The notes below the pieces were generated by a model. The model made no database searches. It saw nothing but the letters and a program-made list of their open reading frames with translations, and had not been told where the DNA came from. DNA of 54,131 nucleotides from a virus: positions 1 to 54,131 of the IMG/VR virus record IMGVR_UViG_3300022929_000037; one strand, 5' to 3'. A program made the translations under genes and the position numbers. How positions within the stretch are numbered: position 1 is the stretch's first letter; each line of letters opens with the position of its first letter. Of this stretch, positions 4,976 through 34,083 are shown in pieces.

Positions 4976-5662
4976 ATGCAAGAAACTTTAATTACTTTAC
5001 TTGACAATGAGTTTGTTAAAATAAGTTACTTTGATAAAAAATCAGACGACGTTGTCCTGTCATTTTCTAGCACTCCAAGGCTGGCCCAGGGAGAAGAGAT
5101 TGCTGAAGAGCAGTTTGTTGGAACTCTCAGCAATAACAATGTAACTGGCATTTTTATCATAGACAAGCAGTCCTCTTATGGCAACAAGATTAACTTTGGA
5201 GAAATTGCTGCTACCATAGCTCCCATTATTATTAATGCAGAGAGGGTCCACGCTGTTGGGTATTGCATGGGTGGTTTTTTGGCAATACTAATGTCTAAAG
5301 TAATTAGCCTACACTCTGTTGTTGCCATTACCCCGCAGTGGAGTATTCACCCAGACATCCTGCCTGAGTCTAGCTACCTAAGAGAATTTACAAATCGTAT
5401 AGATAGCTGGGAGGTCATAAGTTTAGAGAACAGCTTTAATGATACAACGAAATATTTTATATTTAATAGTAATGATGTTGACGATCAGTATCAAATTCAA
5501 TTTTTCCCAGAACAAGAAAACCTAGAGATCTTTGAGTTTGGTCCAGCCACGGGTCACGACCTGCCAGAGGCTCTGGGTGGCAAGCTAGAAGAATTAATGT
5601 TTGCGTGTATTAATGATAACCCTAAAATGGTAGAAGATTTTATAGACTCTTATTATAAATAA
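4976..5662 (+). CDS. Alpha/beta-hydrolase-like protein with Cys nucleophile, 228 aa
   Basis: The nucleophile elbow near residue 96 reads GYCMGG, that is G-x-C-x-G-G with Cys where most esterases have Ser, as in dienelactone hydrolase. A late His (TGHDLP) could complete the triad. The preceding helix-strand (ERVHAVGY) fits the fold. No signal peptide. It stands alone on the plus strand and runs tail-to-tail into the GT60-like gene (23-nt overlap). Substrate unknown; an ester bond on a glycan is possible given the neighbours. Confidence 0.55.
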   Translation: MQETLITLLDNEFVKISYFDKKSDDVVLSFSSTPRLAQGEEIAEEQFVGTLSNNNVTGIFIIDKQSSYGNKINFGEIAATIAPIIINAERVHAVGYCMGGFLAILMSKVISLHSVVAITPQWSIHPDILPESSYLREFTNRIDSWEVISLENSFNDTTKYFIFNSNDVDDQYQIQFFPEQENLEIFEFGPATGHDLPEALGGKLEELMFACINDNPKMVEDFIDSYYK

Positions 5663-6560
5663 TATTATTATAATAATTTCTTGCAATGATGTATTTGTCT
5701 TCCTGGCCCTGAAGTGACCAGAACTCTTCTGGTGTCATCTCAGCATCTTTAATTGCATACTTAGAGTAATCATTATAAATAATTGCTAGGGATAACTCGT
5801 GCCATGTTGCTGGATGCTCTGTTACGGCTGCAGATTTAAAACGATTCTGTTTATCTTCTACACCTTTCCAGTTAGTAAGCTGGTATTGCTGATCTGCCTG
5901 CCAGGTTATTTTTTTATTGAGCTGAAAAACTCTATACCCCGACATCAATAGTCTAAAGGATATCATAAAAATTTCTAGTGAGGTTTGTGAATATGGGTCT
6001 AATCCTACAAGCTCTATAAATGATTTAGGAAAAAGCATTTGTCCTGCTCTAGCAAAATAAATCTCGTGATATTCTGAGTAAGATTTTGACTTACCATTTA
6101 TTGGTTTTGGATGAACAATAGAATAATCATTCACAGGATAATCTTCTAGAACCATATCCCAACTTGATGTCATTATGCCATCTTCATACGGCTCAAGGGG
6201 CAGGATTGCTACCTTGTCTGTTCGATATCTGCCAGATATCTCTTTATAGGCTTTTATAAGAGTAGAGTCCCAGCCAGGTGCAAACTGATAATGAGAGTCA
6301 AGCTGCAAGTAAAAGTCTTCTCCCTGGTAAAGCTCCTTTGAAATGTTATATCTAACCTTTACAATTCCTGGACGAGTATCTGGGTGGTAGCTTATGGTCC
6401 TTACATTACTAAATTCAGACAGGTCTGGCTCTTCGTAATACTGAAGGGCAACCCCAAAGGTAATTCTTTCTGGCTTTATTGCATTATAAAGGGCAGACTT
6501 TATTGTGTCAATTAGTTGAGGATCATTGTAGGCTGCAATTGATATGAATATTGTTTTCAT
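5640..6560 (-). CDS. GT60-family-like GlcNAc transferase, 306 aa
   Basis: Resembles the family of Skp1-hydroxyproline GlcNAc transferases (GlcNAc family, CAZy GT60). It has a GT-A start (FISIAAYNDPQL), PERITFGVALQYYEE, a TRPGIVKVRYNIS block and the metal/sugar site LQLDSHYQFAPGWD near residue 100. The start at ATG 6560 directly follows the stop of the prolyl-hydroxylase-like gene, so the two are one transcription unit. In Skp1 modification a P4H and a GT60 enzyme act in sequence; the same pair here suggests hydroxy-residue glycosylation. The acceptor is unknown. Confidence 0.75.
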   Translation of the reverse strand: MKTIFISIAAYNDPQLIDTIKSALYNAIKPERITFGVALQYYEEPDLSEFSNVRTISYHPDTRPGIVKVRYNISKELYQGEDFYLQLDSHYQFAPGWDSTLIKAYKEISGRYRTDKVAILPLEPYEDGIMTSSWDMVLEDYPVNDYSIVHPKPINGKSKSYSEYHEIYFARAGQMLFPKSFIELVGLDPYSQTSLEIFMISFRLLMSGYRVFQLNKKITWQADQQYQLTNWKGVEDKQNRFKSAAVTEHPATWHELSLAIIYNDYSKYAIKDAEMTPEEFWSLQGQEDKYIIARNYYNNIIYNKSL

Positions 6561-6561
6561 T

Positions 6562-7200
6562 TTACTCAAAGAACAACACGTCTGACGGGTTCTTCCCCTC
6601 TTCGCTAGGCACATACTCTAGAGTATCTTCTACATCAAACTGAAAAAACATAGGCATTGTATATCTGTGACCCGACTTTAGCTCTAGAATTTGGTGACGG
6701 TATCTGCTTGGAAACAAAAGCATGTCTCCAGCTTTAGGCTTTATCGTTAAATCAAACTCTGGAAATGATATCTCTCCACCCGAATAGTCGTCAGTAAGGT
6801 AGGATAGTGATGTGATATTATACTGATAGAATCTTTCTACAATGGCTGGTCCCCCAGAGGGAGTCTCTGAGTCGCTATGTACAGGCATTGAGCTACCAGT
6901 AAGCATGCCCCATTTTGTTAGGTGAGCTGGATTACGTGTGTATCCTTTAAACGGAATACCATACTTTTCTCCATAGTGCATAAGCACTTCAGCCATGGCG
7001 GCATTTTCGTAAAAAATTAGCAGAGCTCGTATTTCATGGTCAACATCCTCTTGTTTAAAGGTGCCATCATCATCAAGACTATCTAAATAATTAACAAATG
7101 TCTCTATATCTTTAGGGTGGACAAAGTTTTTTAGATGTGTAATCCCATCTTTAGAGTAGCCAATTTTATTATACTGCTCCATATAATTTTCATAGCTCAT
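6562..7200 (-). CDS. Prolyl-4-hydroxylase-like 2OG-Fe(II) oxygenase, 212 aa
   Basis: A P4Hc-type dioxygenase: it uses 2-oxoglutarate, O2 and Fe(II) to hydroxylate a substrate. Ligands are visible as H-x-D (MPVHSDSE), the distal His (YRHQILEL) and the 2OG-binding Arg (GHRYTMPMFF). The strand SYLTDDYSGGEISFPEF and the segment IKPKAGDMLLFPS are typical of the family. The ATG lies 6 nt after TATAAT, so it has its own leaderless promoter inside the operon. It abuts the GT60-like gene downstream. Confidence 0.8.
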   Translation of the reverse strand: MSYENYMEQYNKIGYSKDGITHLKNFVHPKDIETFVNYLDSLDDDGTFKQEDVDHEIRALLIFYENAAMAEVLMHYGEKYGIPFKGYTRNPAHLTKWGMLTGSSMPVHSDSETPSGGPAIVERFYQYNITSLSYLTDDYSGGEISFPEFDLTIKPKAGDMLLFPSRYRHQILELKSGHRYTMPMFFQFDVEDTLEYVPSEEGKNPSDVLFFE

Positions 7201-10298: not shown

Positions 10299-10304
10299 TC
10301 AACC

Positions 10305-10333: not shown

Positions 10334-10337
10334 GCAC

Positions 10338-12575: not shown

Positions 12576-12581
12576 ATTATA
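12576..12581 (-). promoter_or_regulatory. Leaderless -10 box for the holin-like gene
   Basis: Minus strand TATAAT 7 nt before ATG 12568, at the very end of the upstream methylase gene. Confidence 0.6.
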
Positions 12582-15484: not shown

Positions 15485-15491
15485 GAATTTA

Positions 15492-15497
15492 ATTATA
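15492..15497 (-). promoter_or_regulatory. Leaderless -10 box for the PIG-L/carbamoyltransferase operon
   Basis: Minus strand TATAAT, 7 nt before ATG 15484, paired with a divergent plus-strand box at 15515-15520. Confidence 0.7.
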
Positions 15498-15514
15498 CCA
15501 GAAACAAAATAGGG

Positions 15515-15520
15515 TATAAT
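15515..15520 (+). promoter_or_regulatory. Leaderless -10 box for the HNH gene
   Basis: TATAAT with ATG 15529 eight bases downstream; no strong -35. Divergent to the PIG-L promoter. Confidence 0.6.
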
Positions 15521-15528
15521 TGTTATAC

Positions 15529-15780
15529 ATGTCAATATTTGCAGAGTTTCAAGCATACAAAGAAAAGCTGGGGTGCCATGACTGCAAGGTTATGTATCCC
15601 CACTACATTTTAGAGTTTGACCACAGAGAGGGCAAGCTCAAAATTGATAACGTTAATCGTGTTTTGAAAAGGTATGGCAGAGATGCTGCATGGGAAGAAG
15701 CAAGGAAGTGTGACGTTGTGTGCTCAAACTGTCACAAGCAGCGAACATATGAAAGAGAGATAGCACGTGTTAATAGATGA
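15529..15780 (+). CDS. HNH-type nuclease-like protein, 83 aa
   Basis: Start ATG 15529 just after the -10 box. It has the HNH layout with zinc Cys pairs: C-x2-C (GCHDCK) near residue 16, the catalytic-type EFDHREG near residue 30, and CSNCHKQRTYE near residue 68. Small HNH proteins in phages are homing or packaging-associated nucleases. The last 14 nt overlap the 2OG oxygenase gene. It is the only nuclease in this glyco region, so free-standing homing behaviour is possible. Confidence 0.75.
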   Translation: MSIFAEFQAYKEKLGCHDCKVMYPHYILEFDHREGKLKIDNVNRVLKRYGRDAAWEEARKCDVVCSNCHKQRTYEREIARVNR

Positions 15781-21486: not shown

Positions 21487-22290
21487 CTATGGAAGTTTGA
21501 TCTTTTGACCGACTTTGATTTGATTTGCGTTAGCAAGATTGTTTAGCCTTTTAAGCTCTTGCCACGTGGTTCCGTTTGCCTTTGCAATTTTGCCAAGGGT
21601 GTCACCGCTCTTAACAGTATACACCTTGCTAGGCTTCTTGTCAACCTTCTTTGGTGTGGTCTTTGCAGCAGGCTTCTTGTATCCTACTGGCATCTTCCTA
21701 GGTGCATTATATGGGTTAGTCTTTTTCTTTTTAGGCACCTCGTGCACTGGTGCTGGCTCAACTGGGTCATCGCTCTTAGCTGCTTGCTTGGCTGTGTCTT
21801 TGATTGACTGTGCCTCATTCATTGCCTTAACAAAACTAATAGGCTCGATAAATCCCTTGCCGTCAGCGGACCATCCATGTGTTCTACCCTTCCAGACTTC
21901 TAGGTGCAAATGCCTTCCTGTTGACATCCCACTGGTTCCCATTTTACCAATGATCTGTCCAGCCGTAACCTTCTGCCCCTTCTTTACCTGGAAAGAGTTA
22001 GGAACTAGGTGTGCATATAGAGATGTGTAGTATTGTCCGTCAATAAAGTGCCTGATTATGACATAGTAGCCAAACCCACCACCTGCTGCTGTGGACTTCT
22101 GTGCCTTGAGGACACGTCCATTAGCGATAGCGTGTACGTAGATTGGATCTTTGCCAATGCCAATAATGTCTGTACCGTTGTGGTGCTTCTTAGTCTTGTG
22201 AACTGGGTGGATTCTCCAGCCCATCTTGCTGGAAATCTTCCAGTCCTTGCCATACTTTCCCTCGATGGCTTGAGTAAATTTTGCTGCCAT
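21487..22290 (-). CDS. Endolysin: M23 peptidase plus C-terminal LysM, 267 aa
   Basis: Zinc metallopeptidase that cuts peptidoglycan peptides. Zn ligands: H-x3-D (HNGTDIIG) near residue 38 and HLHLEVW near residue 126. A Lys/Pro-rich linker (about 170-220) leads to a LysM wall-binding domain ([17 protein letters not shown]). No signal peptide, so it needs a holin; candidates lie at 17893 and 34156. GGAG leader with a TATAAT box at 22317-22322. Confidence 0.85.
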
Positions 22291-22325: not shown

Positions 22326-22991
22326 CTATTCTGTGCCGTCAGACATGCGTGGATTGCTTAGGTGGTGATACCAGTGTGGCATTGCATACCTGGTTCCCTC
22401 AGTTACTGGCATAATCTCATGAACGTATAGGAAGTTAGAAGGAAAAAAGACTATGCTTCCAGCTTCTGGCTTAATCTTGGTATTTGATTGCCTAAACTCT
22501 ATCTCACCACCAACGTAGTTATCGTTTAGGTAGCTAACTGTTGAGATGAGCCTGCTGCTTATACCTAGATCTTGGTGTGCAGGAAGATGGCCCTTGTCGT
22601 ATGCCTCGTATCTAAGGATACCGTCCATAGGCTCCTCTGACTTTACTGCATTTGCTGCAAACGGATATAGCTGTGTTGAGTAGTGGTGAAAAGCTTTATC
22701 TAGTGAGCCATACAATGCATCTGCAATTTGCAAAAGTTCTTGACGATAGTAGTCATGCTCTTGAATCTGGTCATGCCTCCAAATAAAAAATTTGTAATTA
22801 AATGGCTTTTCCATGTGGCTATCGTGCCATGGCCTCCAGTCATTAACTGCTGTAAAATATCCCTCATGCTCATTTTGTTTAAACCGTTCAGCAAGCTTAT
22901 CTACCAAGTCTACTATATACTCAGTATCTGGAATGATATTTTTGTAATATACTAGTCCAAGATCCTTTACTTCAAACTCTATTTGATCCAT
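22326..22991 (-). CDS. Prolyl-4-hydroxylase-like 2OG-Fe(II) oxygenase, 221 aa
   Basis: Second P4H-like enzyme. H-x-D in LPAHQDLG near residue 137, distal His in YVHEIMP, 2OG Arg in GTRYAMPHWY; the strand SYLNDNYVGGEIEF and the turn IKPEAGSIVFFPSNF match the 6562-7200 protein closely, so the two are paralogues. GGAG four bases before the ATG. It overlaps the GT60-like gene by 20 nt, giving the second hydroxylase/GT60 pair. Confidence 0.8.
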   Translation of the reverse strand: MDQIEFEVKDLGLVYYKNIIPDTEYIVDLVDKLAERFKQNEHEGYFTAVNDWRPWHDSHMEKPFNYKFFIWRHDQIQEHDYYRQELLQIADALYGSLDKAFHHYSTQLYPFAANAVKSEEPMDGILRYEAYDKGHLPAHQDLGISSRLISTVSYLNDNYVGGEIEFRQSNTKIKPEAGSIVFFPSNFLYVHEIMPVTEGTRYAMPHWYHHLSNPRMSDGTE

Positions 22992-23970
22992 TCTTCTCCT
23001 GTTTTGCTAGATATTCTATTATATCAGAAAAGGGCTGATAATATTTTCTAGCACTGACTATTGACATATAGTGATCGTGCATTCCTATTGCCTTATAAAA
23101 GTCTTCTGGTGATAATTCTGAGTCAATCTTATAGGGTCCAAGGTTATATAAAAAGAAACGTATAGTCTCATAAAGAACTTCTGGACTGTCTTCTACTGCA
23201 GCAAATTGTTTATTTTTTTCAAACTTAAATGGATTCCAGTTATGATATGCGTATACCCTCTTATATGATCTGTAGGCCTCCCAGCCCCTCATAAATATTA
23301 AATAAGACTGTAGTGGCTCGTCGTTAAACATTTTTACATCTTCTATAAAGAATAAGTTATGCTCAAAATATTCCTTGGGAGCAAAGAACAGGTCCATCGA
23401 TGTATAGTATGTTTTGACAAAGTCTTGGTGTGGAGATTTTACTAAGGGAGAACTTACATTAGTTAAAAAGTCGAGCTCTCCGTTTGGCTCTATAGAGTAA
23501 TCAAACTGCGTTATGTGGTGCAGTGCCACCTCTCCATCGCTTCTACAATTGCATGGCTCTGTTACTGGAGGCTCGCTGTTTGACATTTGACAAGAGATTA
23601 CGACCTTATCGTTACCAGTTTTTAGCCTTAGCTCATTATAGTCGTCAAGAATAAAAACATCCCATCCGCTAGTAAATGTCATGTGAGCATCTATAGATAA
23701 CACATAGTCATAATTTGTTGACAGCGATGCTAGGTCATTTCTTACCTGAATTAGTCCTGGCCTTTCTGGGCCATAATCAATTATAGTAAGATTGTTGTAT
23801 ATAGATAAGTCTAGGTTGATACGCTGATGCTGAAGCCCTACAGCAAAATATATCCTTTCTGGATACGTTGCTTTGTCTATTGCTCCCTGTATTGTTCCAA
23901 TTAGTGATGGATCTTCGTATGATGGTATGATGACCAATATTGTTTTATTATTTGATAACCTTTGTTCCAT
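22972..23970 (-). CDS. GT60-family-like GlcNAc transferase, 332 aa
   Basis: Paralogue of the 5640-6560 protein: LVIIPSYEDPSLIGTI near residue 12, PERIYFAVGLQHQ, RPGLIQVRNDLASL and the sugar/metal site LSIDAHMTFTSGWD near residue 95. A Cys pair (EPCNCRSDGE) is special to this copy. Sits between a carbamoyltransferase (23-nt overlap) and the P4H-like gene (20-nt overlap), so all three are co-translated. Expected reaction: GlcNAc or similar onto a hydroxylated residue. Confidence 0.75.
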   Translation of the reverse strand: MEQRLSNNKTILVIIPSYEDPSLIGTIQGAIDKATYPERIYFAVGLQHQRINLDLSIYNNLTIIDYGPERPGLIQVRNDLASLSTNYDYVLSIDAHMTFTSGWDVFILDDYNELRLKTGNDKVVISCQMSNSEPPVTEPCNCRSDGEVALHHITQFDYSIEPNGELDFLTNVSSPLVKSPHQDFVKTYYTSMDLFFAPKEYFEHNLFFIEDVKMFNDEPLQSYLIFMRGWEAYRSYKRVYAYHNWNPFKFEKNKQFAAVEDSPEVLYETIRFFLYNLGPYKIDSELSPEDFYKAIGMHDHYMSIVSARKYYQPFSDIIEYLAKQEKNGSNRV

Positions 23971-25387
23971 ATTCTTGTTCCCATTTTATAACGTCCGCCT
24001 CATCATTAAGAAGTGGCTGGCCCTTAATATTAAGGCTAGTGTTTAGTAGTACTGGAACCCCAGTCTCTTCATAAAAACGTCTTAGGAGGGCATACAGGCC
24101 TGGATGCTGACGCTTATTTACGGTCTGAACCCTAGAAGTTCCATCCGCATGAACCACAGAAGGTATTTCACTTGGCCTCTTGCATACAAAAGTGTATTGC
24201 ATATATGGTGATGCTGCCTTCATATCAAACCAGTCATTAGCAAATTCCTCTAGAACCACTGGGGCAAATGGCCTAAACAGCTCTCTCTTCTTAATCTTAT
24301 TGACCTTATCCTTAATGTTTGGATCTCGTGGGTCTGCCAGGATACTTCTGTTGCCTAGTGCTCTTGGACCATATTCTGCCCTACCGTATACAACTGGTGC
24401 AACTCCATCAGATAGGATTGCTGCTAGTGCCTGCTCTACTGGATACTTCCTCTTAGGCATATCATATCCCAAGTATGGTCCCCTCCAGGTAAGGTGCTTT
24501 CCATAGGCTGCAGCTGCTGCTCCCAAAGAGCTTCCTGCATCTCCAGGGTTTGGCATAATCCAGACATCAGAGAACATGTCCCATAGCTTCGTATTAGCAG
24601 AAGCGTTTAGTGCACAGCCACCCATAAACACTAGGTTATGCTTGCCAGTCTTATTAACTGCAAACTCCATAAACTCCATAAGCCTTTGCTCATAGACCCT
24701 TTGAACTGCTGCTGCAATATCAAACTTATTTCTGTCATTGACCTCTTCATTCCAATCAAGAATGCCTTTGTGAAAGTTATATCTTTGACCCTTAATGCTG
24801 TCAAAGTATGAGTTTACCTTGCTGTAGTACTTGTTTGCTTTGCCATATGCTGCCATGCCCATCATGATATACTCTTCTTCGTTTGGCTTGAGCCCAAGCA
24901 GCTGTGTGAATGCAGAGTAGAAAAGACCAAAGCTAAATGGATAATTCTTTTTGTATACCTGCTTAATTCTATCGCCTTCACCAACCCAAATGGTAGAGGT
25001 ATTCCATTCTCCTATGGCATCCAATACCACAATTGTAGCATCCTGGAATCTGCTTGTGTAATAGCCTGCAGCTGCATGTGAGTAGTGGTGCTTAAATGTT
25101 TTTACTGGGAGATCTTTGAGCTCAGGATGATTGATATACCTTGGGCTGTCTCCCCCAAAGCCCCCACTAATTGCAATTCTACTTTTCTTTAATAGTGGCT
25201 TTTCATAATAGGCAATCATGTCTGGCTTGCCATATCTCAATGCATCTTCAATTAGTTTATCATTAGTAAACCAATCATTCTTTTCTTTACTATACCGCTC
25301 AGCGTGCCCAGCAAAAAGAATATTGCCGTTCTCAATTAGCGACACTGAAGCATCATGTGTTGTCTCATTAATTCCAAGAATTTTCAT
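23948..25387 (-). CDS. Second NodU/TobZ-type carbamoyltransferase, 479 aa
   Basis: Same family as 13281-14906 but shorter and clearly diverged. MKILGINETTHDASVSLIENG, metal motif HHYSHAAAGYY near residue 100, GGCALNASANTK and the C-terminal GPRALGNRSILADPRDP and DGTSRVQTVN are present, so both domains are intact. TAATG coupling to a 27-aa peptide gene upstream. It heads the GT60/P4H set, suggesting the transferred sugar or the acceptor is carbamoylated. Confidence 0.85.
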   Translation of the reverse strand: MKILGINETTHDASVSLIENGNILFAGHAERYSKEKNDWFTNDKLIEDALRYGKPDMIAYYEKPLLKKSRIAISGGFGGDSPRYINHPELKDLPVKTFKHHYSHAAAGYYTSRFQDATIVVLDAIGEWNTSTIWVGEGDRIKQVYKKNYPFSFGLFYSAFTQLLGLKPNEEEYIMMGMAAYGKANKYYSKVNSYFDSIKGQRYNFHKGILDWNEEVNDRNKFDIAAAVQRVYEQRLMEFMEFAVNKTGKHNLVFMGGCALNASANTKLWDMFSDVWIMPNPGDAGSSLGAAAAAYGKHLTWRGPYLGYDMPKRKYPVEQALAAILSDGVAPVVYGRAEYGPRALGNRSILADPRDPNIKDKVNKIKKRELFRPFAPVVLEEFANDWFDMKAASPYMQYTFVCKRPSEIPSVVHADGTSRVQTVNKRQHPGLYALLRRFYEETGVPVLLNTSLNIKGQPLLNDEADVIKWEQEYGTKVIK

Positions 25388-25470
25388 TAATAGATATACT
25401 TTCTAGGCTTAAGTGCTTTACGATTTTTCCACTTCCAAAATCGAAATTTTATTTGCTTAATTATTTTCAT
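25387..25470 (-). CDS. Strongly basic mini-peptide, 27 aa
   Basis: A 27-codon frame starting inside the end of the SGNH gene and stopping in a TAATG overlap with the carbamoyltransferase. It starts MKIIKQIKFRFWKWKNRK and is almost entirely basic and aromatic. It may be a real peptide (membrane or nucleic-acid active) or a leader that couples translation of the two large genes. No ribosome site is clear. Confidence 0.4.
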   Translation of the reverse strand: MKIIKQIKFRFWKWKNRKALKPRKYIY

Positions 25471-26269
25471 GGTATTTATTATACATTAATTCTGCAGCAT
25501 ATTTATGGAATCCAGTTCCCCAGTGGGCACCATCTTCTGCATAAAAATAGTTTGGGCTGCCATCGTCATTATCATATAGGTAGCTCTCCAGATTAAGATC
25601 GTCGAAGTTATAAAAAGTTTTAAAGTTAAACTTATTGAATATATCCCTCATTGCTGGAGAATTGTATGATGTTGATACAAGGTTTATGCCATATAATTCC
25701 ATAAGCTTTTCAAACATTGAGTATGTCTCATACAGATAAGGGGTCATGCTGTCGATTATTTCTAGAACATCCTGCGTAAAGCTAGTATTATGATATGAAT
25801 ATTTATCTGGGTTAACTACTGCATCGTAGTAGCCGTCTAATTTTTGGTGCAGCCTGATTCCCCTAAAGACATCTGGAAACATTATAAATATTGTATCTGG
25901 CTTGCCATAAGTATCTATATATCTCAGAATTAAGGATATGATGCCGTTAAAGCTTGCACCTTCCCTACCAATATTTATTGCATGTATTTCTTTGCCTATG
26001 TCTTCAGATAGCTTACTGGCTAACAGATTAGGCCAAATATTACTGTCATCGCTTATTCCAGTTCCAAAGGTATTGGAGCATCCAGCAAACAGCATGTGCA
26101 CTTTGCTGGGGTTGACAACAAACTCTTCTGACCTATACCTTAATGAGTTCAGGACAAGGCTGCTATCTCCTTGATCATTTTTAGGCATCTTACCGTCAAA
26201 GCCATACAGGCGATCCTGCTCAGTAGGACCAAACCTGTCATCGAAGTTTTTAAGATAGTTGTAGTTCAT
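25457..26269 (-). CDS. SGNH/GDSL-like hydrolase, 270 aa (copy 1)
   Basis: Ser hydrolase-like fold: block I LFAGCSNTFGTG near residue 60 (G-x-S), block II NIGREGASFNG, block III FIMFPD, and a late D-x2-H (DGAHWG) for the catalytic Asp/His. SGNH enzymes remove or transfer acyl groups on sugars or lipids. One of three tandem paralogues (25457, 26273, 27120). Cytosolic by sequence. Likely acts on an O-acylated sugar; not proven. Confidence 0.65.
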   Translation of the reverse strand: MNYNYLKNFDDRFGPTEQDRLYGFDGKMPKNDQGDSSLVLNSLRYRSEEFVVNPSKVHMLFAGCSNTFGTGISDDSNIWPNLLASKLSEDIGKEIHAINIGREGASFNGIISLILRYIDTYGKPDTIFIMFPDVFRGIRLHQKLDGYYDAVVNPDKYSYHNTSFTQDVLEIIDSMTPYLYETYSMFEKLMELYGINLVSTSYNSPAMRDIFNKFNFKTFYNFDDLNLESYLYDNDDGSPNYFYAEDGAHWGTGFHKYAAELMYNKYHENN

Positions 26270-26272
26270 TAG

Positions 26273-27133
26273 CTAGCTGCCCTTCCATGATTCAGCCCCC
26301 GTAAGCAACTCGTAGAATTTGCTTGCATAAAAATCTTGTTCTGCAATACCTGGATGGGAGTCATCCATAGCCTTAAGCATAATATCTTTATATTTACCAT
26401 TATACACTAAGCCAAACCTATAGAGGTGATCTAGAAACATGTCCTCATCTATTTGATATAAATATTTTATTTTATTTCTGCCATCATCTTTGCTTGCCCT
26501 AGCGACAGAGAAAGATCTGTCCCATGTCATTGCAAAGGCATTAATGTTATTGTTTTCTATAAAGCGAATTGCAGCCTCTACCCCGTTCCACATGTCCCTT
26601 TCTGGCTCTGGAAAAAGAATAAATAAGTAGTCTGGTTTGCCGTATCGAATAATATACTCATCGATTAAATTGATAATATCTGACATAGATGCGGAAGGCT
26701 TTCCTAGATTAAAATATCCTGATGTCTTGGTGCTATGGCTTATAGACGTATAAAGTTTGTGTGCCCATAAGAATTCTTCTGGCATAGAATCTCCAAAAGT
26801 TAAAGAACATCCAGCAAAAAGAATATGCTTTCCAGAGTGGTCTGCAGTAAACTCATCACAACGAAAGCCCTCAGAGTTAATTTTATAAAAATCTTTGCTA
26901 CTTAGCCCTAGCTTATTTAAATATTTTTTAGTTACAAAAAATCCATAGGAGTCTACCCAAGGACGTGAAACAGACTTATGAAATCGTTTTTCTGAGTTTT
27001 CTTTTTCATTTAGGCCAAGCTCCGTGAGCTCTGCTAGGATCAGTTCTTTGACCTGATCAAACTCTTTGTGGTATTTTTCATGGCGGCTCATGTAAACTTC
27101 ATTAAGCTTCTTTGGCAAGCTAAATAGGTCCAT
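26273..27133 (-). CDS. SGNH/GDSL-like hydrolase, 286 aa (copy 2)
   Basis: Start ATG 27133, with GGAGA seven bases upstream. Block I is ILFAGCSLTFGDS near residue 100, block II NLGKPSASMSD, block III LFILFPEPERD, and the catalytic end DDSHPGIAEQDFY (D-x2-H-P-G). It shares the sequence LNSEGFRCDEF-type lead-in with copy 3, so copies 2 and 3 are the closer pair. Overlaps copy 3's end by 14 nt. Confidence 0.65.
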   Translation of the reverse strand: MDLFSLPKKLNEVYMSRHEKYHKEFDQVKELILAELTELGLNEKENSEKRFHKSVSRPWVDSYGFFVTKKYLNKLGLSSKDFYKINSEGFRCDEFTADHSGKHILFAGCSLTFGDSMPEEFLWAHKLYTSISHSTKTSGYFNLGKPSASMSDIINLIDEYIIRYGKPDYLFILFPEPERDMWNGVEAAIRFIENNNINAFAMTWDRSFSVARASKDDGRNKIKYLYQIDEDMFLDHLYRFGLVYNGKYKDIMLKAMDDSHPGIAEQDFYASKFYELLTGAESWKGS

Positions 27134-28097
27134 GCAAATCTCTCCAAATATTATATGCAAAGTTATAATAAAAGTCGTGTTCTGCAATTCCTGGGTGAAC
27201 AATATCGAATGCCCTCAACATAAATTTTGCAAATTTATTATTCTTGTTAATCTTTATGAAGGTCATCATGTGGGCCTGGAGTTCTTTTTCAGCAAATTGA
27301 TATAGAGTATTATTCGTCTGCTGTCTTGGGTCAAGCCAGGGGCTTTGGTAAAACACATCATTAAAATTAGGATTTTGATCAAGGTACGCACCGCCCTTGA
27401 AAGAGTGTATGTCCCAAGAAAACATTATAAGTTTGATATTGTTTGTCTCTGCATATTGAATAAGAGCATTGTGCATTGGAAGAATTACAGAGTGCAGACT
27501 CTCTATTGGAATGCCTGCGTCAATTGACCTCTCTAGGTCTGGGAAATTAATAAAGATATATTCTGGATTTCCGTATAGCTCAATATACTTAAAGACTTGA
27601 TAATAAATATCTAAATGGTTAAATCCTGGTCCAGCAACATTGTAATATCCGCTGGTAGGAACTTGCTTACTAATAGATTTATATACCATTTTAGACCAGG
27701 TTAAGTCAATGGGTAGCCCGTCACCAAAAGTTATGGAGCATCCAGCAAACAAAATATGAAGTTTGTCGTGTGAGTCGGAGAACTCGTCGCACCTTAGCCC
27801 GTCTGAGTTTAAGTGGTAAAAATTATCTATTGTCTCGCCAAAGGTCTCAAGATTCTTTTTAGTAAAGTAAAGATTGAATGGAGACATTAAGGCTGGCATT
27901 AGCTTTGAGTATTTCTGAGACTTACTCTCATGGACTTTGCTAAGCGGAAAATTTGTTTCTATGTAGTCAAAAAGCTCTTCCGCTTTATCAAACCATTCCG
28001 TGTAGTCTTCTCCATATTGCTGGTAAAACTCCAGAGTTGACTGGGAAGGATTGAAACCACTTAAATCTTTATACGCCTTGCTCATGTTTTTGAGCAT
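27120..28097 (-). CDS. SGNH/GDSL-like hydrolase, 325 aa (copy 3)
   Basis: Block I ILFAGCSITFGDG, block II NVAGPGFNHLD, block III FINFPDLERS and end FDIVHPGIAEHDFY (Asp/His pair). Closest to copy 2. ATG 28097 (or 28085) overlaps the P4H-like gene end by 17-29 nt. Three adjacent hydrolase copies suggest different acyl positions or partners, or simply recent duplication. Confidence 0.65.
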   Translation of the reverse strand: MLKNMSKAYKDLSGFNPSQSTLEFYQQYGEDYTEWFDKAEELFDYIETNFPLSKVHESKSQKYSKLMPALMSPFNLYFTKKNLETFGETIDNFYHLNSDGLRCDEFSDSHDKLHILFAGCSITFGDGLPIDLTWSKMVYKSISKQVPTSGYYNVAGPGFNHLDIYYQVFKYIELYGNPEYIFINFPDLERSIDAGIPIESLHSVILPMHNALIQYAETNNIKLIMFSWDIHSFKGGAYLDQNPNFNDVFYQSPWLDPRQQTNNTLYQFAEKELQAHMMTFIKINKNNKFAKFMLRAFDIVHPGIAEHDFYYNFAYNIWRDLHGPI

Positions 28098-28707
28098 GTG
28101 CTACCGCATATGGGTGACGCATGCACTCCCAATCTAACTGATTGCTTAGCTGTTTCCCACCAGTAAAGTCTGGATCTGCATGGTTTGGGATGCTGGTGTG
28201 CATATACAAACAAGTATGCCTTCTTCCAGACGTTACTTCCGTAATTCCATGGATGTGTTCAGAGCCAGCACTTGGGAAGAATACTGCAGAATATTTGCGT
28301 GGCTTATACTCAAAACCCTGATTCGGGAAATAAATAACTCCACCCTCATACTCGCTTGGGTCATTAAGATAGATTATTGTGCTCCACTCAATAAAAGGTT
28401 CTGGATCTTGTGCATCCATGTGTAGTCCACCAGAGCTTCCAGCTGTCCACATAGAGCCAAATGCCTTAAAGACATATATTGGATTAACAAAACCGTTAAG
28501 CTCTTTATGAACCTCGTTTGACTTATCTCCATACTTTACAAGCAAGCTCATAATTCTATCATTATATGGAAATGCTGTTCCTCCAAACCTTTCCTCATAA
28601 TATTCTGGATACGGGTTTGTCTCAGATGGTGACATCTGCTCCTCGATCATTACAGCAGCATCTTCTGGTGTAATAAAGTTATCAATTATATGTATACGAT
28701 GCGTCAT
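28069..28707 (-). CDS. Prolyl-4-hydroxylase-like 2OG-Fe(II) oxygenase, 212 aa
   Basis: Third P4H-like enzyme. H-x-D in LHMDAQDP near residue 97 (HMD), distal His in EHIHGITEV and 2OG Arg in SGRRHTCLYM; IIYLNDPSEYEGGVIYFP and the turn YKPRKYSAVFFPS fit the P4Hc domain. GGAGGA three bases before the ATG and TATAAT at 28723-28728. The glycosyltransferase gene at 28732 lies 24 bp upstream: third hydroxylase/GT pair. Confidence 0.8.
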   Translation of the reverse strand: MTHRIHIIDNFITPEDAAVMIEEQMSPSETNPYPEYYEERFGGTAFPYNDRIMSLLVKYGDKSNEVHKELNGFVNPIYVFKAFGSMWTAGSSGGLHMDAQDPEPFIEWSTIIYLNDPSEYEGGVIYFPNQGFEYKPRKYSAVFFPSAGSEHIHGITEVTSGRRHTCLYMHTSIPNHADPDFTGGKQLSNQLDWECMRHPYAVAHAQKHEQGV

Positions 28708-28722
28708 ACTTCCTCCTCTACT

Positions 28723-28728
28723 ATTATA
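28723..28728 (-). promoter_or_regulatory. -10 box for the third P4H-like gene
   Basis: Minus strand TATAAT in the 24-bp gap after the glycosyltransferase, followed by GGAGGA and ATG 28707. Confidence 0.5.
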
Positions 28729-28731
28729 GCA

Positions 28732-29562
28732 CTAATAGATTGCCTTAACTGATCCAATAAACCTTTCTCCACCAACGTCTACAATCTTTAAATCATAAGG
28801 GTCATAGGGAACATCATCTTGCTGGTAAAAAATTGGCTTAATTAAATCTGTATCAATGCCTACGCACGTTCCCCAGGCCTTTCCAATCTCAGACTTTAAG
28901 GATTCTACAACAGAGTTATATTTATGCTCTAAAGAAAACGGAACATATAGCTCTTCCAATGGCCTGAATTCTTGTATATCATCAATAATATCTGATGGCG
29001 GGGACCATAAATCAATTTGCTTCTTGAAAATATCTAAAGATAAGTATTCATTTTCTCCGTAAAACTTAAGGTGCACTGGATAGTCTAGAGACTTTATTAA
29101 GTTGCTAGAAGAAAACAATAGCTCACTATTGGCATAAGATGTTTTTTCAAAAGTTTCTGATGTTTCATAACTGGCCTCAAGAAAATGCTTATCTTTAATG
29201 CTTAGCGATGGCTTACCATATCCAGAAATTATTCCAGGATTTTCCTTAAAAAATTCAACCAGCCTGGAGTCCCAGCCTTCTGATAAATAAATCCTGTCTG
29301 ATAGTATTAAGGTATACTCAGAGTGTATTTCTGGCATATGAATTGCGGTCTGCTTGAAGCTACACGGACTATTGAGTTTGTCCCAAAAAATATGAGAGTA
29401 TTCAAGGTTATTTAGATGAGAAAACTTATCTTTTCTAAGCATTGGGTGCTGATCATACACAGTAACGTGAACCGAACCAGATGAGGTATTAAACACATTC
29501 TCTACTATATCGAGAAGTTTTGGGTTTTTATAAGAATATATAACTACACTAATACTAATCAT
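28732..29562 (-). CDS. Glycosyltransferase, divergent GT60/GT2-like, 276 aa
   Basis: GT-A type start (ISISVVIYSYKNPKLLDIV). The landmark TLILSDRIYLSEGWDSRL near residue 95 lines up with LQLDSHYQFAPGWD and LSIDAHMTFTSGWD of the two GT60-like proteins, but the D-x-H is degenerate (SDR). VTVYDQHP also matches the region after strand 2. So it is a diverged relative, active or not. Its start overlaps the DUF6065-like gene, and it precedes the third P4H-like gene by 24 bp. Confidence 0.6.
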   Translation of the reverse strand: MISISVVIYSYKNPKLLDIVENVFNTSSGSVHVTVYDQHPMLRKDKFSHLNNLEYSHIFWDKLNSPCSFKQTAIHMPEIHSEYTLILSDRIYLSEGWDSRLVEFFKENPGIISGYGKPSLSIKDKHFLEASYETSETFEKTSYANSELLFSSSNLIKSLDYPVHLKFYGENEYLSLDIFKKQIDLWSPPSDIIDDIQEFRPLEELYVPFSLEHKYNSVVESLKSEIGKAWGTCVGIDTDLIKPIFYQQDDVPYDPYDLKIVDVGGERFIGSVKAIY

Positions 29563-30310
29563 TTCTCATAGACTTCCCACGAAAAATTTTCTTACGCCAG
29601 GCAAACCACTTGTAGTATCCGTGAATTCTTGTTCTTCTTTTTTCAGCTGCAAAGGTATGCCTCTCAATTTCTTTTTCAGAATCGTCCACTTCCATTTCCC
29701 AATTATCTCTTTTAAAAGGAAGAATCTGAAATAGTGGGGTTCCCTTTGGAATAACTCCTCTAAAGCCTTGCTTTAAGAAAAAAGCAATAAAGACAGGCAA
29801 ACCCCAAATATCCGATTCGACGATTCCCGACTGGACAGTAAATGGCAAATCATATCTATTCATTGGGTGTGTAATAAGAACAGAGTATCCTGGCGGAGTT
29901 TCATAATACCAGCCCATCTTAAAGCCATAGTGAATAGGGTGATGTCCTTCTGGAACTGGCAGCTCAATAGTTGGTCTATGATCTACAATCATATTCTCAC
30001 CGTCCCACCACAAAATTGGTTTACCGTCATCGTCAATTTCTACGTGTAAATCATCTGTCAGCATGTAGTGATATCCAGCTGTCATAGCATCTAGGAATGG
30101 CGGACACTGTTTGGTAGCAACTGTTGCACCATCTGTGCCAATATAGTTTACTGGATGAAGAGTTTTTTCGCTATTAGATTTATGATGCTTTGCTAAAGTT
30201 TTATACCATTCTGGCACGTGCATAGAAGCAGGCTCTGGAGGAATTAAGCCATGCTCTTTATATTTAGAATGAGCTGGTGTAAAAACAATTTTTAACAAAT
30301 TGTCTTCCAC
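29555..30310 (-). CDS. DUF6065-like protein, 251 aa (copy 1)
   Basis: Features of the DUF6065 family as I recall it: VPEWYKTL, a C-P-P-F-L-D-A-M-T-A-G-Y motif near residue 70, TPPGYSVLITHPMNRYD near 137, and GTPLFQILPFKRDNWEME near 200. Function of the family is unknown. GTG start, TAGTG overlap with copy 2. Placed in a hydroxylase/glycosyltransferase operon, it may bind or modify a sugar or protein. Confidence 0.55.
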   Translation of the reverse strand: MEDNLLKIVFTPAHSKYKEHGLIPPEPASMHVPEWYKTLAKHHKSNSEKTLHPVNYIGTDGATVATKQCPPFLDAMTAGYHYMLTDDLHVEIDDDGKPILWWDGENMIVDHRPTIELPVPEGHHPIHYGFKMGWYYETPPGYSVLITHPMNRYDLPFTVQSGIVESDIWGLPVFIAFFLKQGFRGVIPKGTPLFQILPFKRDNWEMEVDDSEKEIERHTFAAEKRRTRIHGYYKWFAWRKKIFRGKSMRND

Positions 30311-31035
30311 TATCTATACTCCTTCTTAGAACGAAATTTATTTTTATAACCATTCATAAAGGTGCTTCTAAGGTTAAGTCTTTGGCTATTGAACAGCGTT
30401 TTTGCATCTGCTGGATCTACGACTTCAGAGCTCCACTCTTCTCTCTTAAATGGTATTAGCTGATACAGCGGTGTGCCTTGCCTAATTGTGCCCTTAAACC
30501 CCTTCTTTACAAGGAAAGAGACGTGACCATCTGATACAAATCCATCTGTATCAATCAGTCCTGTAAAAGCCCACAACGGCGAATCATCTGTGTGATATGG
30601 GTTAGTAAACAAAACGCTGTATCCTGGGTCAGTTCCCACAGCCCAAGTTGGCAAAATTCTAAATAGTTGTTTATGGTATTTTTCTGGATCAATCGGGTAG
30701 TTCTCATACTGCTCTGGTGCATGCGTAGCAAATAAGTCAGCCTTTAGACTTTGTAAAGTTAGTGGTATTTGCCACTCTAGCTTTTCTGGATTCGTAGCAT
30801 CTAGGTGGATATCACAAGGTGCCACAATCATGTAGCCTGCAGTCATGGCATCAAAGATAGGCATGCACCTTTTAATTGTAGATGCAGCTGTTCCAGACTG
30901 CGGAATCATTTCTGCATCCCCCTTGTTCCCTGGCTGAGTTTTATACCACTCTGGGACAAGCCTTACTGATGGCTTTGGTGGTGGCACGAAATCCATAGTT
31001 TGTTCACTAAATGGATAAAATCTAATTGTTGGCAT
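30310..31035 (-). CDS. DUF6065-like protein, 241 aa (copy 2)
   Basis: Paralogue of 29555-30310: VPEWYKTQPG, MPIFDAMTAGYMIV, TDPGYSVLFTNPYH and GTPLYQLIPFKREEW line up in the same order. GGAG four bases before ATG 31035, and overlap with the 31022 gene. Family function unknown. The tandem pair suggests two related substrates or a hetero-complex. Confidence 0.55.
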   Translation of the reverse strand: MPTIRFYPFSEQTMDFVPPPKPSVRLVPEWYKTQPGNKGDAEMIPQSGTAASTIKRCMPIFDAMTAGYMIVAPCDIHLDATNPEKLEWQIPLTLQSLKADLFATHAPEQYENYPIDPEKYHKQLFRILPTWAVGTDPGYSVLFTNPYHTDDSPLWAFTGLIDTDGFVSDGHVSFLVKKGFKGTIRQGTPLYQLIPFKREEWSSEVVDPADAKTLFNSQRLNLRSTFMNGYKNKFRSKKEYR

Positions 31036-31699
31036 ACTGCTCCTTAATTCTATCTACTATTATAGCATCTCCACGAAATGTCATATCAAACATGGGGTCT
31101 CCTCGTCTTGGAATACCAAGCTCATGATCCTCCATGTGGCTACCAGTATTTTTAAATTTAAAATAAACAAAATGCGGCTGTAACAAATCTGCGTCTCTTG
31201 GTGGCTGATGCCAAAAATCAGTTTCTTTATTAATTAAAAAGGCAGATTCAACACTTGGCTGTAGGTATGTTACTTCTACATTTGCATCTATAAACCACGG
31301 CACAAAAAATTTATAAGTTCCTTCAAAGCAGTCTTCTTGTTCTGGCATTGAATAACTAGTGTTATAGTATTGCCTCATCCACAACCTATCTACATGGTAA
31401 AGGGGCTCGTCTCCTTGTTTTAAAAGAAACATATCTGCTGCTAAATGGTATCTAATGGTTATTTCATCCCCATTAATTGATAGCAACGATGGTTGATGTC
31501 CAATGTTTTGAACATAGTTATTTAAGGGCTTAACTATAGAATCTTTATACGGACCGTTCAAGACCTCTTGGTAAGACATCCAGGATGGCTTTACCATTGA
31601 TTTAAAGCTAAGATCTATAAAGTCTGGATCTTTTGTTTCATACCAGATCTTTTTATTATCTATCGTGCTATGCGTATCATGAATCATTTTCTTTTCCAT
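31022..31699 (-). CDS. Hypothetical protein, 225 aa, start directly behind tRNA-Thr
   Basis: Not recognised. The protein has many aromatic residues, with FFVPWFIDANVEVTYLQPS near residue 130 and DFWHQPPRDADLL near 165, loosely like the DUF6065 neighbours in layout. The ribosome site is GGAGG at 31704-31708, which is also the 3' acceptor strand of tRNA-Thr; the ATG is only 3 nt from the tRNA end. ATG 31687 is a second possible start. Confidence 0.6.
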   Translation of the reverse strand: MEKKMIHDTHSTIDNKKIWYETKDPDFIDLSFKSMVKPSWMSYQEVLNGPYKDSIVKPLNNYVQNIGHQPSLLSINGDEITIRYHLAADMFLLKQGDEPLYHVDRLWMRQYYNTSYSMPEQEDCFEGTYKFFVPWFIDANVEVTYLQPSVESAFLINKETDFWHQPPRDADLLQPHFVYFKFKNTGSHMEDHELGIPRRGDPMFDMTFRGDAIIVDRIKEQYANN

Positions 31700-31701
31700 A
31701 G

Positions 31702-31775
31702 AGCCTCCTGTCAGATTCGAACTGACGACCTACGCATTACAAGTGCGTTGCTCTGGCCAACTGAGCTAAGGAGGC
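31702..31775 (-). tRNA. tRNA-Thr (anticodon TGT)
   Basis: Full cloverleaf: 7-bp acceptor stem GCCTCCT/AGGAGGC, D-loop AGCTCAGTTGGCC, anticodon loop CTTGTAA with anticodon TGT, and T-loop GTTCGAATC. No encoded CCA. Reads ACA. The 3' acceptor strand is also the ribosome site of the next gene. Confidence 0.9.
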
Positions 31776-31779
31776 AGTG

Positions 31780-31853
31780 CGACCTGGATGGGACTTGAAC
31801 CCACGACCCCCACCGTGACAGGGTGGTGCTCTAACCAACTGAGCTACCAGGCC
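31780..31853 (-). tRNA. tRNA-Asp (anticodon GTC)
   Basis: Acceptor stem GGCCTGG/CCAGGTC with one G-T pair, D-loop AGCTCAGTTGGTT, anticodon loop CTGTCAC (anticodon GTC), T-loop GTTCAAGTC. No encoded CCA. Four bases separate it from tRNA-Thr. Confidence 0.9.
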
Positions 31854-31857
31854 TAAG

Positions 31858-31929
31858 CTCCCCTCCGTGGATTCGAACCACGAACCTTAGAGTTAACAGC
31901 TCTCTGCTCTGCCATTGAGCTAGAGGGGA
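31858..31929 (-). tRNA. tRNA-Asn (anticodon GTT)
   Basis: Acceptor stem TCCCCTC/GAGGGGA, D-loop AGCTCAATGGC, anticodon loop CTGTTAA (anticodon GTT), T-loop GTTCGAATC. First of three tRNAs in the array; a TATACT box at 31940-31945 could be its promoter. Confidence 0.9.
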
Positions 31930-31937: not shown

Positions 31938-33176
31938 CTAGTATACACTATTCAGATAAGAGTACATGTTCTTGTAAAACTCATCTGTCGTATATCCAAA
32001 CCTATTTGAGAATGCAGTCTTCCACGAAATGCCACGACCCATATCCGACATAAAACCAATAAATGTTTCATATGATGAAGTGCCAATGAGGTATTCTACT
32101 GCAAGACCTCCAAGGTCATATGCTGCATAATCATTTATGAGGTGCCTAGACTGTGATGTAGAGCCTACCTCAAGAAGAGTATAGATGCCTACAAGATCTG
32201 ACTCACTCATATTATTAATTGCATTCGCAAGGCCAAATCCATACTCGGTTGCCATCAACCTAGTGGCGACACCTTTTGAGCCTGCCACCATTGAAGATCC
32301 AGGGTTTGCCACGGTGTATCCAAAATATTTCGCTGACCCTCCAGAAATCCATAGAGGATTATTGCTTGGTGTTAGCCCAATACTTGACTGAAGGCTCTGA
32401 AAATATTTTTGAACAATTGACTCTTTTTGCCAACGAATAGTCCTGTCATCAGTTTTGGTTGACACGCACAGATAGAAAACTTTTGGCTGTGCGTCTCCTG
32501 GACCGCAATCGCTACCCCATGGACCATTGCCAATATAAGACACCCAGGTTTCTCCAGTAGGAAGCCTACCACCATAAGTTGCCATCATTTGGTCTGCCCA
32601 CTCCAAATCATTTACCGTAAACAGGACTGCGTGATAATTATCAATAATTCCGATGTTGTGGTCCCAAATACTAACTGCATCAGACAGGGCTTTCTCTAGG
32701 GAGTTTTCCTGAGAACTTGACATAGATGGTCCCACCAAAACCTGACTATCTTCAACGGTAAAAGATCCATCTATCTGTGTTCTAAAGCTAGCATAAGCAA
32801 GATTCGCAACGCTAATCTTTATTTCTTCGGGCTCCTCGGCTGGAGGTTCGCTCTCTGTTGGTATAGTTTCTGCAACCTCTTCTTTTGCAGGACTTGATAG
32901 CTGTGTAGATGATGAGCTTTCTGGCTCTACCTTCTCTTCAGAGCGTGGCGAATCAGGCTCTACGGATAGCTCCTGTGTGACCTCTTCTGGACTCTTAACA
33001 GCAGGAGAACTAGTCTCTGCTGGAGATGGGGTAGCCGTGTCTTCTTGTACTGGTAGCAAGGGATCTGCTAACCTAGTTGTTTGAGAAAGCTCCTGATCTA
33101 TTACTGTCGAACACCCAGAAACTAAAAATAGCGGTATGGCTACTAGAGCTGCAACAGCTTGATTACGTGTTGGCAA
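31938..33176 (-). CDS. Predicted lipoprotein with Pro/Glu/Ser linker and peptidase-like domain, 412 aa
   Basis: The start is TTG 33176, chosen because GGAGGAG lies 4 nt upstream and it gives a clean signal peptide: MPTRNQAVAALVAIPLFLV then lipobox LVSGC (Cys about residue 22). A long disordered linker (about 35-120, repeats of P, E, S) leads to a C-terminal domain with IWISGG-like and AYDLGGLAVEYLIG segments, like the tail half of gluzincin/peptidase-MA-type proteins; no H-E-x-x-H is visible. It should sit on the outside of the host membrane. It could block superinfection or alter the cell surface. Confidence 0.6.
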   Translation of the reverse strand: MPTRNQAVAALVAIPLFLVSGCSTVIDQELSQTTRLADPLLPVQEDTATPSPAETSSPAVKSPEEVTQELSVEPDSPRSEEKVEPESSSSTQLSSPAKEEVAETIPTESEPPAEEPEEIKISVANLAYASFRTQIDGSFTVEDSQVLVGPSMSSSQENSLEKALSDAVSIWDHNIGIIDNYHAVLFTVNDLEWADQMMATYGGRLPTGETWVSYIGNGPWGSDCGPGDAQPKVFYLCVSTKTDDRTIRWQKESIVQKYFQSLQSSIGLTPSNNPLWISGGSAKYFGYTVANPGSSMVAGSKGVATRLMATEYGFGLANAINNMSESDLVGIYTLLEVGSTSQSRHLINDYAAYDLGGLAVEYLIGTSSYETFIGFMSDMGRGISWKTAFSNRFGYTTDEFYKNMYSYLNSVY

Positions 33177-33313
33177 GGGTCTCCTCCATTTTCCCACTCT
33201 TGCTCTTCTTCTTCTGTCATATATGGGTCTCCATTGTGAGTATTGCAAAATGGCTCGCTAACCCAGCCCTGCTCAATGCCCTCACGGAGCCACTCAGAGA
33301 ATTTATTTTCCAT
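33143..33313 (-). CDS. Small Cys/acidic protein of an actinophage type, 56 aa
   Basis: A 56-codon gene: MENKFSEWLREGIEQGWVSE, then EPFCNTHNGDPYMTEEEEQE and GGDPCQHVIKL. The pattern W-V-S-[ED]-P-x-C-x-T-H-[DN]-G / M-T-x-E-E-E / G-G-D-P-C is one I recognise from actinobacteriophages. The two Cys and His could bind metal. ATG 33313 lies 6 nt after TATAAT with TTGACA 17 bp up. It overlaps the lipoprotein start. Confidence 0.7.
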   Translation of the reverse strand: MENKFSEWLREGIEQGWVSEPFCNTHNGDPYMTEEEEQEWENGGDPCQHVIKLLQL

Positions 33314-33319
33314 GTATAA

Positions 33320-33348
33320 ATTATATACTAGGTGTGTAGGTTTGTCAA
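33320..33348 (-). promoter_or_regulatory. Perfect leaderless promoter
   Basis: Minus strand TTGACA (33343-33348), 17-bp spacer, TATAAT (33320-33325), 6 nt to ATG 33313. It likely also drives the lipoprotein and tRNAs. Confidence 0.85.
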
Positions 33349-34083
33349 CTACCAGGATTTGTCATAAATTTTAGGTAGTGGGAAATAGTGCTGCTCCCAA
33401 AATGGCTCATTCTCCATGTTAGCATTTAAATAAGCTTCCTGCTGAATTACTTTTAATGGTATGACATCATAGGCAATTGTAATTCTTTCTCCTGGCCATT
33501 CCCAAGGACCCATGGCATGCTGGTAACCAACCATAGACATTACTGCACGATTATTCTTGTTGTGGTTTACCTTCATCTCACCGTTTACGTCGTAGTGCGT
33601 AGTTGATGGCTCTGCATTTACGGAATAATATCCATGAAATGCTGGCACCCTAATGTTTGGATCTAGGTGGTCGTGCCACTCCAGCTTGGCACCCTTATCA
33701 ATGCTGTTAATGTTAAACCAAGCTTGGGCCATCCACTGCTCAGAGTTATAATCAATTTCATAGTAGTCACAGGCCTCACGTGTCATGTCAACGACTGCAG
33801 AGAATAGTTCGTGCATAAATGGATAATACATCTGGAATGCATTATACTCTCTTGACTTATGTGTTGAAAGGGACTTTGAATAAGTAAAAATATCTGTCTC
33901 ATCATCGTGTGGTCTGATGCCCCACATTTCCAAATTTGCAATTCTTTCATACTCTAGCTTTAGTCGCTCTGCTGCGTAGTCTAGATCATTGTCTAAAAAT
34001 CTTTCAAAAAACTTTTGAGGTTTTGAGTTTTTATCAAAGTCCCAGTCTTCTGGGCCTTGATAGTTATGCTTTGACATTTCCAT
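33349..34083 (-). CDS. 2OG-Fe(II) oxygenase-like protein, 244 aa
   Basis: Probable dioxygenase of the type common in cyanophages. LEWHDHLDPN near residue 132 gives the H-x-D type ligands; a distal His in GYQHAMGPWEW and Arg in ERITIAYDV complete the site. The double-stranded beta-helix region is 130-225. Different subgroup from the P4H-like enzymes. Target unknown. Confidence 0.65.
   Translation of the reverse strand: MEMSKHNYQGPEDWDFDKNSKPQKFFERFLDNDLDYAAERLKLEYERIANLEMWGIRPHDDETDIFTYSKSLSTHKSREYNAFQMYYPFMHELFSAVVDMTREACDYYEIDYNSEQWMAQAWFNINSIDKGAKLEWHDHLDPNIRVPAFHGYYSVNAEPSTTHYDVNGEMKVNHNKNNRAVMSMVGYQHAMGPWEWPGERITIAYDVIPLKVIQQEAYLNANMENEPFWEQHYFPLPKIYDKSW

Follow-up and report, generated by a model that had tools for sequence, protein, structure and literature searches.

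We analysed a 54,131-nucleotide stretch of viral DNA (IMG/VR record IMGVR_UViG_3300022929_000037, positions 1 to 54,131; hereafter, the window), in which positions 22,326 to 31,699 hold an island of putative glycan-tailoring genes. The island consists of eleven large consecutive genes, A to K, all on the minus strand, and neighbouring genes overlap by 1-29 bases or sit 3-69 bases apart. A first-pass annotation of this DNA had spoken of ten large genes, although its own list adds up to eleven; its description of a single reading direction with overlaps or very short gaps was borne out for all open reading frames (ORFs). A 27-amino-acid frame (25387-25470) has no support for being a gene.

Two of the island genes, A (22326..22991; PF13640, 9.5e-16) and G (28069..28707; PF13640, 2.2e-7), encode 2-oxoglutarate (2OG)-Fe(II) oxygenases of the prolyl-hydroxylase type with the HxD...H...R residues. 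The gene B (22972..23970), which overlaps A, is GT60 polypeptide GlcNAc-transferase-like (PF11397, 1.6e-8), and C (23948..25387) is a NodU/TobZ-type O-carbamoyltransferase (PF16861, 1e-53; PF02543, 1.7e-40). At higher coordinates lie three SGNH-like genes recognised by motif blocks: the third paralogue, D (25457..26269); E (26273..about 27133 from an ATG, with a mechanical TTG start at 27202), a paralogue of F; and F itself (27120..28097), which has GCS in block I, DxxH in block V and a weak GDSL match (E 0.01). H (28732..29562) is a GT60-related, GT-A-type glycosyltransferase (profile comparison with GT60, 96.6%, E 5e-10). The DUF6065-like paralogues I (29555..30310; phrog_7084, 4.7e-37) and J (30310..31035; phrog_7084, 1.3e-43; predicted dUTPase-like fold in an AlphaFold2 model) come after K (31022..31699) in the direction of reading; K encodes a beta-rich protein of unassigned family and is the first gene in the conserved block. 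The two oxygenases, the carbamoyltransferase, the three SGNH-like proteins and the two DUF6065-like proteins of the first-pass annotation were all recovered, the last as distant homologues at the profile level; of its two glycosyltransferases, B stands, and H is kept as a profile-level relative of GT60 with an altered acidic motif.

The eleven genes probably form a single transcription unit, which begins upstream of K at a sigma-70-type promoter (TTGACA-17-TATAAT, 12/12 bases; 33320..33348, minus strand). Between this promoter and K lie L (31938..33248, minus strand), a predicted lipoprotein with an LVSGC lipobox and a Pro/Ser/Glu-rich linker, and, immediately upstream of K, the genes of tRNA-Thr(TGT), tRNA-Asp(GTC) and tRNA-Asn(GTT) (31701..31929, minus strand; ARAGORN, Rfam). 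No minus-strand terminator-like site was found between 34200 and 21300, and promoter-type sites with at most one mismatch number 11 in the window, versus 0.68 expected. An equivalent site lies ~1.4-1.65 kb upstream of K in five related loci (L004, L007, L010, L011 and L014). Thus, one promoter, no internal terminator and a conserved gene order were all found, as judged from sequence. Downstream, the block is bounded by N (21487..22290, minus strand; PF01551, 1.1e-21; PF01476), an M23-LysM peptidase and probable endolysin. L evolves fast, its homologues in L007 and L010 being 39% and 26% identical. A possible small ORF (MENKFSEWLREG...) at ~33144-33314 starts ~6 bases past the -10 box, is perhaps leaderless and overlaps the start of L; M (33349-34083) is a conserved protein (75-88%) that has no Pfam match and carries an HxD...H pattern resembling a further 2OG oxygenase.

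The same gene order, the search for which in other phages had been proposed by the first-pass annotation, was found repeatedly. Scanning IMG/VR with J yielded 25 loci, and grouping of near-identical contigs left nine distinct lineages (L007, L011, L012, L013, L014, L015, L016, L018 and L021), all of them metagenomic phages; the window itself has near-identical counterparts in L004 and L005. The order K-J-I-H-G-(0-3 SGNH)-C-A is kept across these lineages with some losses: K-J-I-H is present in 9/9 (in L013, the contig ends within K), G in 8/9, C and A within the block in 7/9 each, and one to three SGNH genes in 6/9. The N-type peptidase is found in seven of the nine, and tRNA genes lie upstream of K in every relative examined. 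Because synteny holds in nine related lineages, the island is not the product of chance; it is a real and conserved predicted operon of a little-known clade of aquatic phages.

Mean identity across relatives is highest for C (71%) and lowest for H (35%), the most divergent gene of the block. Correlations between distance matrices were 0.78 for I-A, 0.71 for H-A, 0.65 for K-I and 0.60 for J-H, with only 0.30 for K-H. Because the matrices of K, J, I, H and A agree for the most part and that of C stands apart, the island is, by these distances, a co-inherited core with more mobile parts. Unrelated gene phylogenies had been named beforehand as a sign against a common island; on this point, the distances of C do not track those of J, H and A, and those of the core genes mostly track one another.

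The phage itself is related to Streptomyces phage BillNye (Stanwilliamsviridae): the DNA polymerases are 56% identical, and the order of DnaE, UvsX, RecB, RuvC and terminase is common to both. Because these backbone genes are close to those of a Streptomyces phage, the host is likely to be an actinobacterium. All that comes after the terminase in BillNye is a tRNA array and small genes, with no island at that place. Among 50,697 named phage records, no relatives of H, K or F were found, and GT60 gave only one weak match.

The residues predicted to bind iron and 2OG (H139, D141, H191 and R201) are invariant in 17 sequences of the A, G and T types, T being an oxygenase at a second site of the window (6562..7200, minus strand; PF13640, 4.3e-9). 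In a search of PDB, the oxygenase profile matched best prolyl 3-hydroxylase 1, PKHD hydroxylases, bacterial prolyl 4-hydroxylase, LH3 and EGLN1; Tet-like enzymes appeared at E 0.006 only. A, G and T are, by these matches, protein prolyl/lysyl-hydroxylase-like. T overlaps P (5640..6614, minus strand), a second GT60 gene (PF11397, 1.2e-18), and the order ThyX-T-P is kept in the relatives G001 and G006. B matches GT60 at 34.9 bits and P at 68.1 bits, versus a cut-off of 21, and the acidic metal-site motif is DAH in B and DSH in P. In H, by contrast, S-D-D/R replaces D-x-H, no Pfam family is matched at all, PF11397 included, and the tie to GT60 comes from profile-profile comparison, with homologues in two relatives matching PF11397 at 5e-4; H is best regarded as a divergent relative of GT60 and not a member of the family. 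Overlapping 2OG-GT60 gene pairs thus occur at two places in the window, adjacent pairs occur in G001, G006 and G019, and one bacterial protein (L159:5045-7672) fuses a 2OG oxygenase, GT60 and a tubulin-tyrosine-ligase-like (TTL) domain. The earlier idea of a hydroxylated acceptor is strengthened by the second pair and by this fusion. GT60 enzymes are polypeptide alpha-GlcNAc-transferases, a related enzyme glycosylates hydroxyproline in Skp1, and a Pythium enzyme fusing hydroxylase and GlcNAc-transferase activities has been cited (PMC8724618, review). Methyltransferase domains accompany GT60 in other bacterial proteins. A pattern scan of viral contigs for relatives of P confirmed none, and the GT60 relatives came from the profile search.

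The carbamoyltransferase C has both the N- and the C-terminal domain (Pfam), and its PDB matches include novobiocin carbamoyltransferase, GdmN and TobZ. The SGNH-like proteins D, E and F are mutually paralogous and share the invariant residues S121 (GCS, block I) and D298 and H301 (DxxH, block V); none of the three has a Pfam match or matched a curated SGNH profile.

From the observed gene content, operon structure, synteny, catalytic residues and 2OG-GT60 link, we infer that the island is a phage operon building and decorating a protein O-linked glycan, a reading to which we assign a probability of about one half. The UDP-glucose dehydrogenase-like and epimerase genes (sugar-nucleotide type) and the PIG-L deacetylase gene elsewhere in the window also speak for this reading. 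The likeliest acceptor would be a fibre of the virion or an envelope protein made by the phage. In the first step, A and G would place a hydroxyl group on the side chain of a proline (or lysine), and in the second, B and H would transfer HexNAc (N-acetylhexosamine) or another sugar onto the hydroxyl. C would then transfer a carbamoyl group to a hydroxyl of the sugar at the expense of carbamoyl phosphate and ATP, and D, E and F would attach or take off acyl esters. K, J and I may be accessory, e.g., in the binding or supply of nucleotides or nucleotide sugars or in modulation of the acceptor. The variable number of SGNH genes, the insertion of B and the fast change of H, K and L would point to selection by the receptors or defences of the host or by superinfecting phages.

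Several observations weigh against this reading. No acceptor protein was identified. B lies outside the conserved block, being found at the island in 0/9 lineages, and the distances of C are uncorrelated with those of J, H and A (r = 0.08, 0.08 and 0.19, respectively). The SGNH assignment is based on motifs and on matches to solved GDSL proteins at only ~E 0.01, and J and I suggest nucleotide chemistry as readily as glycans. Collagen-like Gly-X-Y proteins are encoded in 5/5 relative records of at least 94 kb; loci in the relatives are L170:5561-5752 and 9654-10355, L177:13473-14363 and L179:2912-4953. In 124 collagen-like triplets, however, proline is found 27 times in the X position versus 13 times in the Y position, and such an excess is the pattern of unhydroxylated collagens (PMC3368898). 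Lacking a preference for proline at Y, these proteins were rejected as a clear acceptor and remain candidates; the proline-rich linker of L is another candidate. Some of the collagen-like proteins of the relatives start with K-I-(V/I)-P-(F/L/M)-P-G.

The function of J and I has to be considered separately. Their scores with the Pfam DUF6065 family (PF19541), 14.8 bits for I and 12.6 bits for J, are below the cut-off of 26.6; the two are ~33% identical, and their profile matches that of bacterial DUF6065 (hhalign, 97%, E 1e-10). In the model of J (predicted local distance difference test, pLDDT, 84), the best 50 PDB fold matches are all dUTPase or dCTP deaminase; the Foldseek probability is near 1 for nearly all of them, with a best E of 1.3e-3 for this predicted model. 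It is somewhat unlikely, in our estimate, that J and I serve the nucleotide pool, as divergent substitutes for dUTPase or dCTPase that happen to adjoin the glycan genes. Besides the predicted fold, this explanation is favoured by degenerate segments (TAGY, G[LI][IV][DE]xD and GTPLxQ), which follow the dUTPase motif order, and by the distribution of dUTPase: PF00692 was found in 0/12 island-phage records, several being fragments, and in neither HRTV-7 nor syn9, whereas BillNye, which gives no DUF6065 match, encodes a dUTPase between DnaE and UvsX. In addition, the DUF6065 gene of the halovirus HRTV-7 adjoins those of thymidylate synthase and DNA polymerase. On the other hand, comparison of the J profile with that of dUTPase gives no significant match (1.5%), the alignments of J lack the RSG motif and the C-terminal GFGSTG motif, leaving the set of five motifs incomplete, J and I are strictly linked to H, and dUTPase is absent from many phages. 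All 22 of the examined bacteria with a true DUF6065 also have a dUTPase, so DUF6065 was rejected as a general dUTPase substitute in bacteria, a rejection that does not extend to phages.

DUF6065-like genes are also present in four gammaproteobacterial metagenome-assembled genomes (L058, L059, L060 and L063; in tandem in L058), in which PF00692 dUTPase was not found, with genome incompleteness or misbinned phage possible. The gain of a functional context, anticipated for DUF6065 in the first-pass annotation, holds within the island phage clade only: clustering of the neighbours of bacterial DUF6065 genes revealed no conserved glycan genes, and no mention of DUF6065 was found in the literature searched. 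Because of the dUTPase-like predicted fold, the unrelated bacterial neighbours and the nucleotide context in the halovirus, J and I, although homologues of DUF6065 at the profile level, may not be glycan enzymes. K, whose relatives are 34-53% identical, has no Pfam match, and its AlphaFold2 model (pLDDT 83) no PDB fold match. As a third DUF6065 paralogue, it was rejected: it is colinear, but the profile match is weak (35%) and the predicted fold lacks a dUTPase match.

The main rival to protein glycosylation is that the enzymes of the island modify a polysaccharide on the host surface or synthesise a carbamoylated, hydroxylated secondary metabolite, for phage exclusion or host benefit. The closest published cluster, in cyanophages, which combines carbamoyltransferases, a halogenase and several 2OG oxygenases, has been interpreted in this manner (PMC7824862), and the window has UDP-glucose dehydrogenase-like, epimerase and PIG-L genes and one further glycosyltransferase-like gene. 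A tryptophan halogenase (L169:2261-3463) adjoins GT4 in the relative G012, as in the cyanophage clusters; the DUF6065-like gp43 of syn9 has two tryptophan halogenases and many 2OG oxygenases as neighbours. Still, the oxygenases of the island resemble protein hydroxylases, GT60 acts on polypeptides (PMC8724618), and a 2OG-GT60 fusion exists; we consider this rival doubtful. Even less probable is the absence of any single pathway, with a recombination hot-spot at a tRNA locus gathering unrelated accessory genes. The tRNA genes preceding the island, the tRNA array without an island in BillNye, the poor correlation of C and G with several other genes and the insertion of B in the window only would fit such a hot-spot; the K-J-I-H order, kept with overlapping frames in 9/9 lineages at 35-64% mean identity, would not. 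DNA hypermodification, in which oxidised bases would be glycosylated and carbamoylated as in 5-carbamoyloxymethylcytosine phages, is very improbable: a phage TobZ-type enzyme does carbamoylate 5-hydroxymethylcytosine (5hmC) (PMC8670742) and ThyX adjoins the second 2OG-GT60 pair, but the same study ties DNA-modifying carbamoyltransferases to ThyA-type synthases and locates carbamoyltransferases next to glycosyltransferases in unmodified contigs, the ThyA-type hydroxymethylase family PF00303 was found in 0/12 island-phage records (several being fragments), and the Tet_JBP matches in the 12 records are all below the cut-off and coincide with the PF13640 genes. Protein hydroxylation with O-glycosylation is favoured over DNA hypermodification by the protein-hydroxylase type of the oxygenases, the GT60 and GT60-related transferases, the second 2OG-GT60 pair and the bacterial fusion.

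Other genes of a sugar type lie elsewhere in the window. A second run of genes (5640-10333), nearly all touching or overlapping, lies behind a perfect promoter (10333-10305) and includes UDP-glucose dehydrogenase-like, epimerase, ThyX, 2OG oxygenase and GT60 genes; a ThyX within a sugar operon is odd. A second, Nol-like carbamoyltransferase (13281-14906) is accompanied by a PIG-L deacetylase (14903-15556); in the same region, 10338-11033 and 12577-13284 each encode a TP_methylase-like protein.

Compared with known systems, the island is a variation on known decoration clusters, with J and I as a putative accessory module. As in the Skp1 hydroxylation/GlcNAc pathway (a prolyl 4-hydroxylase and the GT60-type Gnt1), a prolyl-hydroxylase-type 2OG enzyme is coupled to a GT60-type transferase, here through overlapping phage genes and, in one bacterium, through fusion; unlike that pathway, the island also has carbamoyltransferase, SGNH and DUF6065-like genes. 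With the cyanophage cluster it shares carbamoyltransferases and several 2OG oxygenases, and in syn9 a DUF6065-like gene also lies amid those of 2OG oxygenases and halogenases; it differs in having GT60 and SGNH, in the phage lineage and in the halogenase, of which none was found in the window. Viral side-chain hydroxylation followed by glycosylation is also known from Mimivirus L230, L593 and R699, with other glycosyltransferases, in a giant virus and on a demonstrated collagen substrate (PMC9546862). C has both domains and a strong sequence match in common with TobZ, GdmN and the novobiocin and 5hmC carbamoyltransferases but, unlike the 5hmC system, is without a ThyA-type companion. J and I are homologues of DUF6065 at the profile level, and J has a predicted fold like that of the dUTPase superfamily, whereas their Pfam scores and incomplete dUTPase motifs set them apart, and bacterial DUF6065 lacks a glycan context.

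The hydroxylate-then-glycosylate route for proteins is known in slime moulds and giant viruses and has rarely been seen in phages. Its fullest version here, in which hydroxyproline or hydroxylysine O-glycosylation by the phage, a carbamoylated and acyl-edited sugar on phage proteins and an obligatory accessory module formed by a pair of repurposed DUF6065 proteins with the dUTPase fold all hold together, is unlikely. If true, phages would share the logic of protist Skp1 and giant-virus collagen modification and combine it with a carbamoyl chemistry known from antibiotics. This would give some of the unexplained 2OG oxygenases of aquatic phages a testable role and would offer a fold hypothesis for DUF6065.

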